Shown piece after piece: positions 2,571-36,085 of a DNA stretch of 38,985 bases. The stretch is taken from contig JADMII010000019.1 in assembly GCA_015478665.1 (NCBI GenBank), positions 1-38,985 of the forward strand. Direction: 5' to 3'. Every line of letters starts with the position of its first letter. The first letter of the stretch is position 1. The translations under genes were made by a program, and so were the position numbers. Under the pieces are notes generated by a model, which was not told the origin of the DNA, ran no database searches, and was given only the letters and a program-made list of their open reading frames with translations. Source of the DNA: Dehalococcoidia bacterium. GTDB lineage: Bacteria > Chloroflexota > Dehalococcoidia > DSTF01 > JACRBR01.

Positions 2571-3722
2571 TCACCCCACTCCGGCCGTCACCGAGAGGAT
2601 CGGTGGCAGCGTGCCGGGCAGCCGCTGCCAGTGGTCGCCGCCGTCGGCGCTCGCATGCACCTCGCCGTTCGTCGTGCCGACGTACACGCCCTCGCGCTCG
2701 ACGCCGTCCGTATCGAGCGCCTCGCGGTACGCGCTCTGATAGTCGTGCGGACCGGGCAGGCCCGTCGTGAGGCGCTCCCACGTTTTGCCGAGGTCCGCCG
2801 TGCGGTACACGGCGAACTGCCCCGGACAGACCCGAAAGTTGTTCTCTTGGAACTCAAGCGGCACGACGTACGTCGCGTCCGGGCCGCGCTTCGTCACCGC
2901 CAGCGGGAAGCCGTGGAACGAAGGCAACCCCTCGGTCACGTCCTCGAATGTCACGCCCTGGTCGTCGGAGCGGAAGACGCCAACGTGCGTCTGCGCCCAG
3001 ATCCGATCCGGATTCTTCTGGTCGAGCCGCATGTTATGCATCTCGTCGATCGCCATGGGGTCGATTCCGGGGCGGATCTCCTGCTCCGGGAACATCTCCA
3101 TCAGCTCCTTCACGAACTGCCGCGCTGACATCGTCTGCGGGATCGCCGCGTGCGAGAAGATCTCCCACGTCGTGCCGCCGTCGCGTGTCGTGTAGCCGCC
3201 GCCGGCGCTCACCGCGACATAGATGCGCCGTGCGTCGCGCGGGTCGACCTCGATCGAGTGCAGCGCTGAATCGCCGCCGCCGCTTCCCAACCAGTACTTC
3301 CGCTCCTCGCTGCGGTTCAGCTCGTCGACGGGCTTCCATGAGGCGCCCCAGTCATCGCTGCGGAAGAGCCCCGCCGGCTGCGTGCCGGCGTAGACGACGC
3401 CGGGCTCGCTCGCCAGCCCGGGCGTGACGTGCCAGACGTTGCCGACCGTGACGCCCATATCCTGGGGGAAGCCGAGCCCTTCGCTGCGCACATCCCAGTC
3501 CTTCGCCCCGGCGTCGCTCTTGGCGACGGAACGCCCCCACGCCCAGTGATTCGCCGCCGCGTAGAAGCGCGGCGCATCACCGCGCCCGTCGATTGCCATC
3601 TGGTACACGGCCCAGCCCGGCAGGATCGGCTCGGAGATGTCCCACGACTCGCGGCTGCGGTCCGAGGTGTAGATGAACGCGCCCTTGCGCGTGCCGACGA
3701 GCACCTTCACCTGATCTGGCAT
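2571..3722 (-). CDS. BNR/sialidase-like beta-propeller protein
   Basis: A 383-residue protein with repeated Asp-box (BNR) motifs of the S-x-D-x-G-x-x-W kind: SDDWGASWK (about residue 120), TRDGGTTWE (about 180), SDDQGVTFE, TADLGKTWE and SADGGDHWQ near the end. Such repeats form a beta-propeller as in exo-alpha-sialidases, VPS10 and photosystem-assembly factors. Most bacterial relatives without sialidase active-site residues have no known enzyme function, so the role stays open. No signal peptide is visible (MPDQVKVLVGTRKGAF), which suggests a cytoplasmic protein. It lies downstream of the solute-binding protein on the same strand, 173 bp away, with no clear operon link. Confidence 0.8.
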   Translation of the reverse strand: MPDQVKVLVGTRKGAFIYTSDRSRESWDISEPILPGWAVYQMAIDGRGDAPRFYAAANHWAWGRSVAKSDAGAKDWDVRSEGLGFPQDMGVTVGNVWHVTPGLASEPGVVYAGTQPAGLFRSDDWGASWKPVDELNRSEERKYWLGSGGGDSALHSIEVDPRDARRIYVAVSAGGGYTTRDGGTTWEIFSHAAIPQTMSARQFVKELMEMFPEQEIRPGIDPMAIDEMHNMRLDQKNPDRIWAQTHVGVFRSDDQGVTFEDVTEGLPSFHGFPLAVTKRGPDATYVVPLEFQENNFRVCPGQFAVYRTADLGKTWERLTTGLPGPHDYQSAYREALDTDGVEREGVYVGTTNGEVHASADGGDHWQRLPGTLPPILSVTAGVG

Positions 3723-15214: not shown

Positions 15215-15988
15215 CTATTTCTGTGTCCGCTTTGATCCGGGCGCGGCCTGGCGGCGGCGGCCGCCGGACGCCAACTCGGGGTGGTACAACACGGCGCTGG
15301 GGCAGAGGTCACGCAGGACGCATTCGGGGCAGCGCGGCCGTTGCGCGATGCAGATGCGCCGGCCGTGCTTGATCAGGCCGATGTGGAACGCGTAGAAGTC
15401 GGACGCCGCCACCAGGGATTCCAGCAGTTCGTGCGCCTTCTCGGCGGTCATCCTCGCCCTGCCGGCGCGCTGCGGGATGAGCGCGAGCCGCGTCGCCACA
15501 CGGAAGACGTGGGTATCGACGGGCATCGCCGGCCGGCCGAGCGCGAAGAGCAGGACGCACGCGACGGTCTTCGGCCCGACGCCGTGCAGGCTGCGCAGCC
15601 ACTGGCGCGCCGCCTCGAGCGGCAGATCCGCGAGGAACTGCAGGTCGTAACCGCCCGTGCGCGCCTTGATGTCGCGCAAGGCGGCCTGAATGCGCGGCGC
15701 CTTCGTCGGCGCCAGGCCGCCGGGCTGGATCGCTGCGACGAGCTCGTCAAGCGGCGCCGAGGCGACGGCCTCCCACGACGGGAAGGCTTCGAGCAGCCGC
15801 ACGAAGGCGCGGCCGCTGTTGGCGTCGGCCGTGTTCTGCGAGAGGATGGTCAGCACGAGCTCGGAGATCGCGTCGTGGTGAGGCCGCCACGCCGGTACGC
15901 CGTAGGCATCATCGAGCCGCGCGACGATCTCCGGTATGCGGGCGACGTTCGCCTGCGGCTTCGGTCGGACGCGACGGGATGCAGGCAT
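15215..15988 (-). CDS. nth: Endonuclease III family DNA glycosylase
   Basis: A 257-residue base-excision repair enzyme that removes oxidised pyrimidines. The helix-hairpin-helix is LHGVGPKTVACVLLF, with the lysine position of the catalytic residue, followed by P-V-D-T-H-V-F-R-V with the catalytic Asp. The [4Fe-4S] loop is CIAQRPRCPECVLRDLC, giving the C-x6-C-x2-C-x5-C spacing of the family. ILSQNTADANSGRAF is the usual N-terminal helix signature. The ATG at 15988 was chosen; a TTG seven codons upstream is possible and neither has a clear ribosome-binding site. A basic tail after the cluster (GGRRRQAAPGSKRTQK) extends it slightly beyond the E. coli length. Confidence 0.93.
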   Translation of the reverse strand: MPASRRVRPKPQANVARIPEIVARLDDAYGVPAWRPHHDAISELVLTILSQNTADANSGRAFVRLLEAFPSWEAVASAPLDELVAAIQPGGLAPTKAPRIQAALRDIKARTGGYDLQFLADLPLEAARQWLRSLHGVGPKTVACVLLFALGRPAMPVDTHVFRVATRLALIPQRAGRARMTAEKAHELLESLVAASDFYAFHIGLIKHGRRICIAQRPRCPECVLRDLCPSAVLYHPELASGGRRRQAAPGSKRTQK

Positions 15989-30697: not shown

Positions 30698-30855
30698 GGT
30701 CGCGCATGTTGGATGCGGATCGTCGTCGGCGGCCGCCGGGCTTGCAACCGCTCGTCGTTCCAGGCAGTCGTGGCACGGGTCGAGTCCGCAGGTGCATTGC
30801 TGACGGGCGCCGATCGGGGGGAGGCCGCGTCGGCGGGGCGATGTGCGAGGAGCGG

Positions 30856-30884
30856 TTGACGCCTGTGCACCCTGGTGCTACGGT
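30856..30884 (+). promoter_or_regulatory. Possible promoter of the TetR gene
   Basis: TTGACG (30856-30861), 17-bp spacer, TACGGT (30879-30884, only 3/6). The expected start, near 30891, lies just before the palindrome. Confidence 0.4.
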
Positions 30885-30895
30885 GGCGATCGTAC

Positions 30896-30911
30896 TAGTG
30901 AGCGCTCACTA
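30896..30911. promoter_or_regulatory. TetR-type operator
   Basis: TAGTGAGCGCTCACTA, a perfect 16-bp palindrome 21 bp before the TetR start codon and overlapping the expected transcription start. Position and symmetry are those of an autoregulatory operator for a dimeric TetR protein. Confidence 0.75.
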
Positions 30912-30932
30912 ACAAGCTGGGATGGTGCGGCG

Positions 30933-31652
30933 ATGGTGACGACGAGGGCGCGCCGGCTGCCGGCCGAGAAGCGCAAGCGCCAGATCATCGAGAGCGCGCG
31001 GTCGGTGTTCGCCGGGCAGACGTACGCCAAGGTGGGCACGGCGGACCTGGCGAAGGCGGCGGGCATCTCCGAGCCGGCGCTCTACCGCCACTTCGCCGGC
31101 AAGAAGGAGCTCTTCGTCGCGACGCTGCGGGCGACGGCGCCGCGCCTGCTCAGGGTGTGGGAGGAGATCTCCTGCGACTACGACGATCCCATCGAGACGC
31201 TCTGGGCGATCGGCGTCTACTACTACGACCACCTCGACAGCCACACCGCCAACATGAAGCTGCAGTTCCGGGCGCTCTCCGAAGCCGACGACCCCGAGAT
31301 CCGGGCGGCGCTGCGCGAGAGCTTCGGCGCCTTCGTCGAGTTCGTCGCCGACACGCTGGAAGAGGGGAAGGCGCGCGGCATCGTGCGCGAGGACGTCGAC
31401 GCGCGGATAGTCGCCTGGCAGTTCCTCGGCATTGGCATGACGCTCGACATGATGCATGTGCTGGGCTTCTCCGGCGAGATGGACCGCGCCCGCGCGGCGA
31501 TCTGGGGACGGCTCTACCTCGATGCGGTGAAGCGCACGGCGGCCGGCGCGCCGACGTACCTCAGCGACCGGGCGCCGATGCGCGCGCCCGACGGCATCTG
31601 GTCGGCGCTCGGCGGCGAGACGCCGGCGTTCGTCGAGGGGGCGGTGGGATGA
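30933..31652 (+). CDS. TetR/AcrR-family transcriptional regulator
   Basis: A 239-residue regulator. The N-terminal HTH spans about residues 12-58: RKRQIIESARSVFAG, then YAKVGTADLAKAAGISEPAL and YRHFAGKKELF, the classical TetR pattern. The C-terminal domain is helical (WEEISCDYDDPIETLWAIG, ALRESFGAFVEFVADTLEEG) and would bind a ligand, likely an acyl-CoA or related compound given the genes that follow. The ATG at 30933 begins the protein just before the basic leader VTTRARRLPAEKRKR. It is divergent from the NUDIX gene and immediately upstream of the dehydrogenase cluster, which it may repress together with itself. Confidence 0.92.
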   Translation: MVTTRARRLPAEKRKRQIIESARSVFAGQTYAKVGTADLAKAAGISEPALYRHFAGKKELFVATLRATAPRLLRVWEEISCDYDDPIETLWAIGVYYYDHLDSHTANMKLQFRALSEADDPEIRAALRESFGAFVEFVADTLEEGKARGIVREDVDARIVAWQFLGIGMTLDMMHVLGFSGEMDRARAAIWGRLYLDAVKRTAAGAPTYLSDRAPMRAPDGIWSALGGETPAFVEGAVG

Positions 31653-31870: not shown

Positions 31871-33088
31871 ATGGACTTCCACGACAGCGCGCCCGAAGCG
31901 TCGTTCCGCAGCGAAGTGCGCGCGTTCATCGCCGGGCAGTGCCCGCCGGGCATCCGGCGCCGCGGCCTCGGTGCGATGTTCGGCGGCGGCGGCTGGGACG
32001 ACATCCGCCTGGGCACGGAGGCCTATCGCCAGCTGAACGCCGACTGGGCGAAGAAGCTGGCGGATCGCGGCTGGATCGCGCCGGCCTGGCCGCAGGAGTA
32101 CGGCGGCGCGGGCATGACGGTGATGCAGCAGTTCATCTTCAACCAGGAGATGGCGGCGGCGGGCGCGCCGAAGGGCGGCAACTACGGCATCGGCACCGGC
32201 TGGGCGGGTCCGACGATCATCCTCTACGGCACCGAAGATCAGAAACAGCGGTACCTGCCGCCGATCGTCCGCGGCGAGGCGATCTGGTGCCAGGGTTTCA
32301 GCGAGCCCGGCGCCGGCTCGGACTTGGCATCGTTGCAGACGCGGGCGACGAAGGACGGCGACGACTACGTCGTCAACGGCCAGAAGATCTGGACGTCGGG
32401 CGCGCACGTCTCCGACTACATGATCCTGCTCGCCCGGACGGATCCGGAGGCGCCGAAGCACAAGGGCATCAGCTACTTCATCGTCGACATGAAGTCAGCA
32501 GGCATCGAGGTGCGGCCGCTGGTGAACATGGCCGGCAACCACGACTTCAACGAGGTGTTCTTCGAGAACGTGCGCGTGCCGAAGGAGAACCTGCTCGGCG
32601 AAGAGAACCGCGGCTGGTACGTCGGCACGACGACGCTGGACTTCGAGCGCAGCGGTATCGCGACGAGCGTCTCGCACGGGCTGATGGTGCGCGACCTGGC
32701 GGCGTTCGTGCGGGAGCATCGCGACGACGACTACGTCTCGAAGAGCCGCGCGCTGCGCCACGAGATCGCCGATCGCGCCGTCGAGTCGGAGGTGGAGCAG
32801 ATGCTCTGCACGCGCGTGGTATCGATGCAGAACCGCGGCCTCGTGCCGAACAAGGAGTCGTCGATCGCGAAGCTGTACTCATCGGAGCTGGACATCCGCA
32901 TCGCGGTGACGGCGATGCGTGCGCTGGGCGCCTACAGCCAGTTACGACGCGGGAGCGTGCGGGCGCAGTTCAACGGCAGGGCAGAGAGCGCGTACCTCTA
33001 CGCGACCACGAGCACCGTCGGAGGCGGCACGTCGGAGATCCAGCGGAACATCATCGCCGCGCGCGGACTGGGATTGCCGCGCGCGTGA
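31871..33088 (+). CDS. Acyl-CoA dehydrogenase, paralogue 1 of the cluster
   Basis: A 405-residue flavoprotein that introduces a trans-2 double bond into an acyl-CoA and passes electrons to ETF. Features: GWIAPAWPQEYGGAG (N-terminal helical domain), IWCQGFSEPGAGSDLASL (FAD/substrate strand), KIWTSGAHVSDY, ISYFIVDMKSAGIEVRPL and GGGTSEIQRNIIAARGLGLP at the end. The Glu376 position of medium-chain enzymes is Gly here. Glu259 in LDFERS is the likely base, at the site used by isovaleryl- and long-chain enzymes. An insertion of about ten Gly-rich residues (RRRGLGAMFGGGGWDD) makes it the longest paralogue. Its own promoter lies 40 bp upstream. Confidence 0.94.
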   Translation: MDFHDSAPEASFRSEVRAFIAGQCPPGIRRRGLGAMFGGGGWDDIRLGTEAYRQLNADWAKKLADRGWIAPAWPQEYGGAGMTVMQQFIFNQEMAAAGAPKGGNYGIGTGWAGPTIILYGTEDQKQRYLPPIVRGEAIWCQGFSEPGAGSDLASLQTRATKDGDDYVVNGQKIWTSGAHVSDYMILLARTDPEAPKHKGISYFIVDMKSAGIEVRPLVNMAGNHDFNEVFFENVRVPKENLLGEENRGWYVGTTTLDFERSGIATSVSHGLMVRDLAAFVREHRDDDYVSKSRALRHEIADRAVESEVEQMLCTRVVSMQNRGLVPNKESSIAKLYSSELDIRIAVTAMRALGAYSQLRRGSVRAQFNGRAESAYLYATTSTVGGGTSEIQRNIIAARGLGLPRA

Positions 33089-33097
33089 CGGCATACA

Positions 33098-33125
33098 GTC
33101 GCAGGTCGCACGTTGCAGGTCGGGT
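33098..33125. repeat. Left terminal repeat of an IVP-carrying element, 7-bp periodic
   Basis: GTCGCAG, GTCGCAC, GTTGCAG, GTCGGGT in phase. Bases 33098-33121 match the reverse complement of 33540-33563 at 20 of 24 positions. It begins nine bases after the stop of dehydrogenase 1. Confidence 0.75.
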
Positions 33126-33140
33126 CGACGGTGAGTTCGA

Positions 33141-33440
33141 GTGACATCCGCACGACGGCAGCGATACGGGCAGCTGGAGGTGCATCAGCGCGCGGGGGCG
33201 CCGGTGCGGCCCGTGCACGACCTCGGCGCCGGCCCCATCGTCCGGGCGTCAGGGTTCGCCAGCCGGATCGGTCGCGCCTGCACGTCCATTGCGACGAACA
33301 TCGCCGAGGGGCACCGGAAGCGACACTCGCCTCGCCACGTTGCAACTTCCTCACGATGGCGCCGGGGTCGACCGACGAAATGTCCGCGCAGTTGATATCG
33401 CCCGAGAGCCGGGCTGGATCACTGAGGAGGAGAAACATTC
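33141..33440 (+). pseudogene. Broken four-helix-bundle protein gene (23S rRNA IVP / Avd-like family)
   Basis: Three frames together spell one protein. From 33141: RYGQLEVHQRA, a degenerate middle, then SGFASRIGRACTSIATNIAEG. After one frameshift near 33345: FLTMAPGSTDEMSAQLI. After a second near 33397: IAREPGWITEEEKH. The family consensus has L-x-V-W-Q-x-A, then L-x-S-Q-I-R-R-A-x-x-S-I-x-x-N-I-A-E-G, then F-L-x-x-A-x-G-S-x-x-E-x-x-x-Q-L-x-x-A, then L-G-Y-I. These small proteins are found in rRNA intervening sequences, as Avd in diversity-generating retroelements, and widely as orphans; their function is poorly known. At least two frameshifts make this copy non-functional. Confidence 0.75.
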
Positions 33441-33532
33441 AGATTCGTCGCCGGGTATCGCGTGGTTGCGCGTCGACTCAGGCAACTCATTCGATACGGG
33501 CGTTCAGGTGGTGAACGGGCCGGAATACGCAG

Positions 33533-33567
33533 GACCTGAGACCTGCGACATGCCACATGCGACAGGA
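33533..33567. repeat. Right terminal repeat of the IVP-carrying element, 7-bp periodic
   Basis: GACCTGA, GACCTGC, GACATGC, CACATGC, GACAGGA in phase; the inverted partner of 33098-33121. The final AGGAG is also the ribosome-binding site of dehydrogenase 2. Confidence 0.75.
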
Positions 33568-33577
33568 GTGAAACGAC

Positions 33578-34765
33578 GTGGATTTCAAGGACAACACCGA
33601 AGAAGCGGCGTTCCGGACGGAAGTGCGGGACTTCATCAACAACGAGCTGCGCAAGGAGGTGCCGGAGGGCGGCGCCGAGGACCTGGAGCGCGGCATGTAC
33701 CGTGGCGCCTTCGAGCGGCTGAAGGGCGTGCGACAGAAGCTCGCCGGCCGCGGCTGGATCGCGCCCGCTTGGCCGAAGGAGTACGGTGGCGCCGGCCTCA
33801 GCGTGAAGCAGCAGTTCATCATGAACGAGGAGTTCGCCGAGAACCGCGTGCCGCCCGTCGGCGGCATGGGCGTCTCGATGATCGGCCCGACGCTGATCGT
33901 GCATGGGAACGAGGCGCAGAAGCAGGAGCACCTCGGCCGCATCCTCTCGGGCGAGGTGCAGTGGTGCCAGGGCTTCAGCGAGCCCGGCTCCGGCTCGGAC
34001 CTCGCGTCGCTGCAGACGCGCGCCGTGCGCGACGGCGATGACTTCGTGATCAACGGCCAGAAGATCTGGACCTCGGGCGCCCAGTACGCGCACTGGATGT
34101 TCATGATGGCCCGCACCGACCCCGATGCGCCGAAGCACAAGGGCATCAGCTACTTCATGCTCGATATGAAGTCGCCGGGCGTCACGGTGCGGCCGCTGAC
34201 CAACCTGGCGAACCAGAACATGTTCAACGAGGTGTTCTTCGAGGACGTCCGCGTGCCCGCGAAGAACCTGGTCGGCGAGCTGAACCGCGGCTGGTACATC
34301 GGCACGACGACGCTCGACTTCGAGCGCTCGAGCATCGGCTCCGCCGTCGGCATTCGCCTGCAGCTCGATGGGCTCGTGAAGTACGCGAAGGAGCACGAGG
34401 GCGACGGCACGAGCCGCACCGGGCAGCTCGAGTCGCTGAAGGGCGAGCTGGTGGACCGCTACATCGAGGCGAACGTGGCGCGGCTGATGTCGTACCGTGT
34501 GGTGACGATGCAGGCCGCCGGGATGATCCCGAACCACGAGGCCTCGATGACGAAGCTGTTCGCGTCGGAGCTGAACCAGCGCATCGCGCGCACCGGCGTG
34601 AGGGTGCTGGGGCTCTACGGTCAGCTGTACGGCGACGATGCGCCGATGAAGGGCCGCTACGAGAGCTCGTACATGACGTCGCTGGCGTCGACGATCGCCG
34701 GCGGCACGTCGGAGATCCAGCGGAACATCATCGCCACGCGCGGCCTCGGCCTGCCACGGGACTAG
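33578..34765 (+). CDS. Acyl-CoA dehydrogenase, paralogue 2
   Basis: A 395-residue acyl-CoA dehydrogenase of the same subfamily as its neighbours. It begins MDFKDNTEEAAFRTEVRDFI from a GTG start, with AGGAG nine bases upstream. Motifs: GRGWIAPAWPKEYGGAG, QWCQGFSEPGSGSDLASLQT, KIWTSGAQYAHWMFMM, ISYFMLDMKSPGVTVRPL and AGGTSEIQRNIIATRGLGLP. Likely catalytic base Glu249 (LDFERS), with Gly at the classical Glu376 site. An 81-bp stretch (33991-34071) is nearly identical to paralogue 3. The substrate is not predictable. The IVP-carrying element sits directly upstream, so any promoter between genes 1 and 2 would have to lie within it. Confidence 0.94.
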   Translation: MDFKDNTEEAAFRTEVRDFINNELRKEVPEGGAEDLERGMYRGAFERLKGVRQKLAGRGWIAPAWPKEYGGAGLSVKQQFIMNEEFAENRVPPVGGMGVSMIGPTLIVHGNEAQKQEHLGRILSGEVQWCQGFSEPGSGSDLASLQTRAVRDGDDFVINGQKIWTSGAQYAHWMFMMARTDPDAPKHKGISYFMLDMKSPGVTVRPLTNLANQNMFNEVFFEDVRVPAKNLVGELNRGWYIGTTTLDFERSSIGSAVGIRLQLDGLVKYAKEHEGDGTSRTGQLESLKGELVDRYIEANVARLMSYRVVTMQAAGMIPNHEASMTKLFASELNQRIARTGVRVLGLYGQLYGDDAPMKGRYESSYMTSLASTIAGGTSEIQRNIIATRGLGLPRD

Positions 34766-34794
34766 AGGGCCGACGCGCGCTGCGTCGCGCGCAT

Positions 34795-34840
34795 GGTGGA
34801 CGATGGAAGCTGAAGCCCGGAGGCACGTCCTCCAACCACC
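34795..34840. repeat. Inverted-repeat/heptad-like spacer between dehydrogenases 2 and 3
   Basis: A 5-bp hairpin (GGAGG, CACGT, CCTCC at 34819-34833) inside outer words GGTGGA and TCCAACCACC that are roughly inverted. The 7-bp phase is only faint here, so this is a weaker member of the spacer family. Confidence 0.35.
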
Positions 34841-34903
34841 GTACCAACACCACGGCCATCGTTCGATGGCGCAGACACGAACAGTCGAGAGGAGCGTACC
34901 AAG

Positions 34904-36085
34904 ATGGATTTCACGGACAGCCCCGAGGAAGCAGCGTTTCGGAGCGAGGTGCGAGACTTCATCCTGAGGGAGGCGCCGCGGCCCAAGCCGGGCGAGTCCG
35001 GGCAGGAGGCGCTCGTCAGCGGCTGGGCAGCGAATCAGGAGTGGTTCAAGAAGCTCGGCGCGAAGGGCTGGATCGCGCCGGCGTGGCCGAAAGAGTATGG
35101 CGGCGCCAGCATGACGACGGTGCAGCAGTTCATCTTCAACGAGGAGATGGCGCTCCAGAAGGCGCCGCGTCCGCTGCACATGATCATCGGCCTCGGCATG
35201 GCCGGTCCGACGCTCATCGTCCACGGCACCGACGAGCAGAAGCAGAAGTTCCTGCCCGGCATGCTGAAGGGCGAGGACATCTGGTGCCAGGGCTACAGCG
35301 AGCCGGGCGCCGGCTCGGACCTCGCGTCGCTGCAGACGCGCGCCGTGCGCGACGGCGATGACTACGTGATCAACGGGCAGAAGATCTGGACGACGCTGGC
35401 GCACATGGCGAAGTACATGATCCTGCTCACGCGCACCGACCCGGACGCCCCGAAGCACCGTGGCATCACCTACTTCATCCTCGACATGAAGTCACCGGGC
35501 GTCGAGGTACGGCCGTTGTACAACCTGGGGAACTCGCACGAGTTCAACGAGGTGTTCTTCGACAACGTCCGTATCCCCAAGGAGAACGTGATCGGCGAGG
35601 AGAACCGCGGCTGGTACGCGGCCGTCACCACGCTCGACTTCGAGCGCTCGAGTATCGGCTCGGCGACGGGCATGAAGCAGCACGTCGAAGAGCTGGTGGA
35701 GTATGCCACGGCGCACGAGGCGGAACCGACGAGCACGCTGCGGACGAACCCGATGCTGCGCTACGAGCTCGCCGACCGGATGGTCGAGGTCGAGGTGGCG
35801 CGGATGCTCTCGTACCGGGTGGCGAGCATGCAGGCGCGCGGGCTGATCCCGAACTACGAGGCATCGTCGCTGAAGCTCTTCAGCACGGAGTTGAACCAGC
35901 GCATCGCGCGCACGGCGATCCATATCCTCGGCCAGTACGGCCAGCTGCGCGGCGACGACGCCCCGACGAAGGGCCGCTGGGCGGCGACGTACCTGCGCTC
36001 GCAGGCGTACACGATTGAGGGCGGCACGTCGGAGATCCAGCGGAACATCATCGCCCAGCGCGGCCTGGGGCTGCCGCGGGACTAG
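34904..36085 (+). CDS. Acyl-CoA dehydrogenase, paralogue 3
   Basis: A 393-residue acyl-CoA dehydrogenase. It starts MDFTDSPEEAAFRSEVRDFI with GAGAGGAG upstream of the ATG. Motifs: AKGWIAPAWPKEYGGAS, IWCQGYSEPGAGSDLASLQT, KIWTTLAHMAKYMILL, ITYFILDMKSPGVEVRPL and EGGTSEIQRNIIAQRGLGLP. Likely base Glu247 (LDFERS). An extra Glu directly precedes GGT, one residue away from the classical site. It shares almost identical DNA with paralogue 2 over 35311-35391. A 138-bp spacer separates it from paralogue 2. In other bacteria paired dehydrogenase genes can encode heterotetramers; whether that holds here is unknown. Confidence 0.94.
   Translation: MDFTDSPEEAAFRSEVRDFILREAPRPKPGESGQEALVSGWAANQEWFKKLGAKGWIAPAWPKEYGGASMTTVQQFIFNEEMALQKAPRPLHMIIGLGMAGPTLIVHGTDEQKQKFLPGMLKGEDIWCQGYSEPGAGSDLASLQTRAVRDGDDYVINGQKIWTTLAHMAKYMILLTRTDPDAPKHRGITYFILDMKSPGVEVRPLYNLGNSHEFNEVFFDNVRIPKENVIGEENRGWYAAVTTLDFERSSIGSATGMKQHVEELVEYATAHEAEPTSTLRTNPMLRYELADRMVEVEVARMLSYRVASMQARGLIPNYEASSLKLFSTELNQRIARTAIHILGQYGQLRGDDAPTKGRWAATYLRSQAYTIEGGTSEIQRNIIAQRGLGLPRD

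Follow-up and report, generated by a model that had tools for sequence, protein, structure and literature searches.

What is the short unit that separates two acyl-CoA dehydrogenase genes in the DNA described here, and how did it come to lie there? The window, that is, the whole analyzed stretch of 38,985 nucleotides, contains a series of tandem acyl-CoA dehydrogenase paralogues (31871-36085) behind a TetR-like regulator gene (30843-31652). The insertion point of the unit lies directly after the TGA stop codon (33086-33088, forward strand) of the upstream dehydrogenase (ORF 31871-33088). The downstream dehydrogenase (33578-34765, forward strand) is intact and is the other flank used in comparison with empty sites. 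The unit is thus located between two dehydrogenase genes and outside any rRNA gene. An earlier note on this DNA had interpreted it as a 466-bp cassette with 24-bp terminal inverted repeats, carrying a decayed gene of the 23S rRNA intervening-sequence protein (IVP) family.

The inverted repeat is real. Recomputed, positions 33098-33121 pair with positions 33540-33563 at 20 of 24 sites, a score that was reached in 6 of 2000 trials of Markov resampling of the region. A feature that had been overlooked is that both arms consist of tandem 7-bp units, such as GTCGCAG, GTCGCAC and GTTGCAG, with an arm self-identity of 0.79 at lag 7. According to the inverted-repeat and lag analysis, the left array (GTCGCAG GTCGCAC GTTGCAG GTC) occupies 33098-33121 on the forward strand. 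The right array is inverted and occupies 33532-33564 on the reverse strand (TGTCGCA TGTGGCA TGTCGCA GGTCTCA, reading inward), the arm first described being 33540-33563. The inverted ends proposed in the note therefore exist, but they are clade-specific heptad arrays and not repeats of a fixed 24-bp length, so that a search for "24-bp ends" would miss the element family. Fixed 24-bp ends were also rejected on the ground that a second copy is absent from the window. The 481-bp unit is single-copy, with one match in its own genome (G000). Inverted 7-bp arrays around an IVP remnant are the defining features of the heptad-armed IVP element proposed below, and the window unit has them.

As read from its letters, the gene between the arrays is a frameshifted remnant of the 23S rRNA IVP family. 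The PF05635 (23S_rRNA_IVP) profile aligns its positions 2-57 with window positions 33171-33335 (forward strand, frame of 33141) at 27.4 bits, the curated cut-off being 33.8 bits, and our own IVP profile gives 27.2 bits on the same segment. Profile positions 59-77 resume in a second forward frame at about 33341-33397 (7.6 bits), which supports a frameshift near 33340. Two of the three frames from which the note had assembled the protein are thus well supported by the profile. The third, DIAREPGWITEEE, at about 33391-33435 on the forward strand, is a possible further remnant, family-like and plausible, its score of -2.7 bits being not significant when taken alone. Unlike this split remnant, the intact IVP copies of relatives score far above the PF05635 cut-off. 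One further degenerate IVP copy is present in G000 (contig C36, locus L002) and has a heptad of its own, ACAACAG.

The orthologous spacer between the two dehydrogenase genes contains no IVP in G002, which belongs to the same genus (about 47 bp), in G003 (48 bp), in G004 (96 bp) or in G005 (90 bp). The 466-bp unit is thus absent from orthologous spacers, the clear cases being G003, G004 and G005. The G002 spacer starts with GTCGCAGGT and ends with TGCCATCGCAAC; read by eye, these ends suggest that it may be the deletion scar of a window-type element and not a never-occupied site. Within this spacer (G002:C44, about 15354-15402; L054) lies the 33-bp GTCGCAGGTGGCGGCAGCGTGTGCCATCGCAAC, which is similar to the outer end of the window unit on either side and is a likely deletion scar. 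The G005 spacer also contains a REP-like hairpin. In G006 the spacer is occupied by an intact IVP element, whose heptad GTCGCTG is one letter off the GTCGCAG of the window. Two G006 copies are equally close to the window unit (41%), and the copy in the same spacer is not singled out. In the acyl-CoA dehydrogenase cluster of this genome (G006:C18:239402-245779; L040), four spacers in a row carry an IVP element. Every one of the four has a heptad of its own, and two are broken.

The same small-element design recurs in many bacterial phyla, and the window copy is a decayed, ordinary member of this wider class. Inverted repeats flank the IVP gene at 150 of 168 loci tested, and 7 is the best period in 143 of those 150. 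Taken together with the empty orthologous spacers, the repeats around other IVP genes lend good support to the decayed mobile cassette of the note. Among 60 relatives, almost all IVP ORFs lie between inverted 7-bp arrays, and the best inverted score around them has a median of 18, compared with 8 when the flanks are swapped and 9 at control places. The pooled self-identity of the arms reaches 0.72 for a lag of 7 and 0.69 for a lag of 14, compared with 0.22-0.31 at the other lags tested, and in a control 5.4% of other ORFs attain the arm threshold. The heptad-arm pattern is also found on cyanobacterial plasmids and in 80 loci of many phyla, and at least 583 relatives of one IVP subfamily were found in one scan. 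The second, independently drawn sample was gammaproteobacterial: among the 369 genomes of the class that includes a Methylocaldum genome, 30 have an IVP match, and lag 7 is best at all armed loci (27 of 27, duplicates removed). The modal array has five units (40 of 115 left arrays and 51 of 115 right arrays, with a similar result in the second sample), the mode being broad, with 4-6 units in about 75%. A tblastn search for carriage by phages gave no match in 50,697 phage records. The arm of one element (L027, G057:C353) is 88 bp long with a period of 14, and a Y1 transposase fragment lies 1.3 kb away. Several IVP elements are present in Poribacteria (L166, L170, L187), and their heptads are AT-rich (GTTATAA, GTTTCCA).

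The heptads vary by IVP clade and include CAGCnnT, CAGTnnT, CAGACAA, GGGAATC and xxGGTCG, among others. Their similarity rises with IVP identity: the Spearman coefficient for 115 elements is 0.667 against a permutation maximum of 0.184, and that for a less biased subset is 0.272 against 0.198. When dissimilar IVPs occur in one genome, their heptads are unrelated (similarity 0.33, baseline 0.34); the heptad similarity of IVPs from different genomes that are 60-95% identical is 0.74, the pairs in this range being mostly from one clade. Close IVPs in different phyla have a common heptad. Because the heptads are clade-specific, common to close IVPs across phyla and unrelated within a genome, the motif, judged from these correlations, follows the protein and not the host. 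In the CAGCnnT clade five positions are kept across phyla while the other two positions of the unit vary freely, which favors recognition over mere descent. Most likely, an IVP would recognize its own heptads as the ends of the element. The only property shared across the family is the period of 7; the terminal repeat is not conserved across clades, unlike the criterion applied to classical IS elements and MITEs.

Filled and empty states of orthologous sites are found elsewhere as well. Site 1, on cyanobacterial plasmids, carries the element in Trichormus and Scytonema but not in Nostoc linckia or Aulosira, the flanks of the two states being 97-98% identical and the empty spacer being 13 bp long. 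The filled site runs from AAAAAGTAA into the element, which begins with TAAATCAG and ends with TTCTTT, and then into GTAATTAAC; the empty site reads AAAAAGTAATTAAC, which corresponds to a duplication of GTAA. This is the single site at which a target duplication is clear, and it is ambiguous at the others. At site 2 three Nostoc plasmids carry the element and four lack it. At site 3 the element splits an overlapping stop and start (GGTAATGGG) and leaves both genes intact. Further pairs are found between nrdB and nrdA, in an ABC transporter operon and at an Aulosira gene whose last codons have been lost and which has acquired a TAA. In the group to which the window belongs, the trpS-side spacer, which lies upstream of a second gene, carries the element in G001, G002 and G006, contains a decayed copy in G000 and is empty in G003. 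In G007 the same spacer contains a RAYT-like gene with REP hairpins instead of an IVP element; this locus (G007:C162, about 2650-3305; L241) encodes a RAYT-like Y1 transposase, and its REP hairpins are GTAG-footed.

IVP elements also stand between cas6 and cas4 in type I-D CRISPR loci of Pseudanabaena and Anabaena plasmids (L073, L079). L079 and L084 were rejected as a filled and empty pair at the cas6-cas4 site, as the empty site is not clean. Four loci (L002, L030, L032, L043) have IVP elements with still matching arms at one orthologous spacer across genera, which suggests either long-term maintenance or repeated homing. Taken as old, vertically kept insertions, they are unusual for a purely selfish element and count against the explanation favored below. 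The dN/dS of the plasmid-clade IVPs is 0.10-0.15, indicating purifying selection in this one clade.

The elements are positioned at or adjoining stop codons. Among co-directional ORFs of 350 codons or more on the upstream side, 42 of 47 have their end no farther than 15 bp from the start of the array, and in the second sample 16 of 19 upstream ORFs end at a stop within 15 bp of the array; the neighbor ORFs were called mechanically, and the arrays may supply the stop codon themselves, which inflates negative distances. Many of these ends are natural C-termini, as in dehydrogenases ending GLGLPRD. Where the neighbors are convergent and the ancestral spacer is 60 bp or longer, one of the two stops is close to the element in 9 of 10 cases (expected 5, p 0.008). 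Between co-directional genes the sense orientation is favored, 50 to 8. Selection for harmless sites could mimic stop-codon targeting or add to it.

Arrays also occur without an IVP gene. For the CAGACAA type the number of such places is about 32 in G001, 23 in G002 and 12 in G006; these arrays far outnumber the IVP genes and are dispersed away from them. A plasmid unit of 190 bp (L089) is another such case, as are the GGGAATC pairs in G433, a genome that also has an IVP element with GGGAATC arms (L217) between accB- and accC-like genes, so named from the translations as read. Heptameric simple-sequence repeats are common in bacteria, and GGGAATC repeats have been described in Xanthomonas and Nostoc (PMC4692102); the GGGAATC arms around the G433 IVP gene tie that heptamer to the IVP. 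The TAACTGA repeats of Beggiatoaceae, for which no mechanism of spread was evident to the authors (PMC4679880), are the reverse complement of the TCAGTTA heptad type found here, a likeness of motif. On an Azospirillum plasmid, an IVP element with heptad arms lies inside a full 23S gene (L080). In the Coxiella intervening sequence the ORF is preceded by tandem GACAGAT heptamers, whose number varies between strains (PMC4990558). No earlier report linking heptads with the IVP was found in the open-licence PMC literature; subscription work could contain one.

It is possible to bring together the element architecture, the covariation of motif and protein, the presence and absence at orthologous sites, the position at stop codons and the IVP-less arrays in one description. 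With moderate confidence, the window unit may be regarded as a decayed member of a widespread group of very small mobile elements of about 430-600 bp, in which the heptad arrays would be the ends recognized by the IVP. Such an element would consist of one Avd-like four-helix IVP/S23p gene flanked on each side by an array of about five 7-bp units, the two arrays being inverted relative to each other and the heptad being an end-recognition motif specific to the IVP clade. The predicted IVP structure (pLDDT 96) matches XCC0516 (2gsc), BT_0352 (2rld) and Avd (4dwl; DGR complexes 8ub7 and 8ube), and 2gsc and 2rld have five chains each. An IVP homopentamer might bind the arrays with about one heptad per subunit, and the bound pentamer might then pair the two ends for insertion. 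The insertion would take place at or adjoining a stop codon, and the host genes would therefore survive. The IVP-less arrays would be non-autonomous derivatives. Copies that have landed in 23S genes would account for the rRNA intervening sequences. To our knowledge, the IVP family has no recognized catalytic domain and no known nuclease or transposase motif; cutting and joining are for this reason likely to be performed by a host or trans factor.

An unlikely alternative is that the units are MITE-like passengers of an unrelated trans transposase, for example of the Y1/RAYT type, and that the IVP has another role. Y1_Tnp is indeed enriched in IVP genomes (18 of 23, against 8 of 37 others; Fisher 3e-5), and a RAYT-like element sits in the same orthologous spacer in G007. 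However, the ends of the G007 element are GTAG-REP and not heptads, the heptad tracks the IVP, and the Y1 association may merely mirror the mobile-element load, as DDE_Tnp_1 is present in 15 of 23 IVP genomes and 13 of 37 others. Y1_Tnp has no match in G000, nor in G041, which is 99% complete and has intact IVPs. The Y1 transposase is thus correlated with the IVP but is not required in G041.

It is quite unlikely that the arms have been retained because they pair in the transcribed RNA, the unit being an mRNA intervening sequence excised by RNase III. The Coxiella sequence is cut out by RNase III via its terminal stem (PMC4990558), the sense orientation prevails in tandem-gene contexts, and one element, L080, lies in 23S rRNA. 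On the sense strand, however, G.U mismatches show no excess over A.C (52 against 56 in 57 elements, 109 against 97 in 115), which speaks against selection for a sense RNA stem and favors DNA ends. Moreover, some elements are antisense to their neighbors (L074, L173), and the IVP-less arrays stand apart from IVP genes. The free heptad positions match between the arms at 0.61, little better than the 0.53 of swapped arms; strict copying of one arm from the other was rejected on this ground, yet the arms of L042 and of L047 are identical.

Retro-mobility, in which the IVP would act like Avd together with a reverse transcriptase, is very improbable despite the match of the IVP model to Avd and to the Avd chains of DGR ribonucleoproteins: RVT_1 is absent from G000-G007, of which G006 and G007 carry 11 and 6 IVP matches, and is found in just 5 of 60 genomes. 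Simple-sequence slippage unrelated to the IVP is hardly credible, as the commonness of heptameric repeats in bacteria (PMC4692102) and the strain-variable heptamer number in Coxiella (PMC4990558) are outweighed by the contradicting inverted pairing around one gene family, the clade-specific motif and the presence or absence of whole units.

The wider heptad-IVP pattern is the important result, above the window copy itself. A small mobile element with IVP-recognized heptad ends would explain both the orphan IVP genes and the orphan heptamer repeats. For the IVP/S23 "four helix bundle protein", a very common orphan family, it supplies a function that can be tested; it also offers a single origin for the rRNA intervening sequences and the heptamer repeats GGGAATC and TAACTGA, and the matched pairs of protein and motif form a natural set for reading a recognition code. 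If the IVP alone moves the unit, few autonomous mobile elements would be smaller; if it does not, the partner becomes a sharp question. A more far-reaching speculation, which is possible but doubtful, is that the IVP elements form a separate class of minimal autonomous mobile elements. The pentamer would read five heptads per end, find stop codons (and rRNA helices), perhaps via the terminating ribosome or RNA, and insert without a classical transposase, and the orphan heptamers of many phyla would be its footprints.

Several known systems resemble the element. Like MITEs and REPIN/RAYT elements, IVP elements are short, intergenic and dispersed and have non-autonomous copies, and RAYT and IVP elements are able to occupy the same spacer. 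Unlike them, the IVP unit has no fixed terminal repeat, REP hairpin or tyrosine transposase; no REP hairpin was found in the window unit and no Y1_Tnp match in its genome. The Avd protein of diversity-generating retroelements (4dwl, 8ub7) has the same four-helix fold as the IVP model (TM 0.8), whereas the genome of the window, unlike those retroelements, has no reverse transcriptase. The Coxiella 23S intervening sequence (PMC4990558) resembles the window unit in its S23p/IVP ORF, its length of about 430 bp and its inverted-repeat ends, and its heptamers are reported only upstream and not as a family-wide feature. The window unit shares with rRNA intervening sequences the inverted terminal repeats around an IVP ORF but not the location in an rRNA gene, since it and nearly all others lie in spacers of protein genes at stop codons. 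The orphan heptamers (PMC4692102, PMC4679880) are, like the IVP arrays, 7-bp tandem and intergenic repeats, those of Xanthomonas being often inverted pairs; the papers do not link them to IVP genes.
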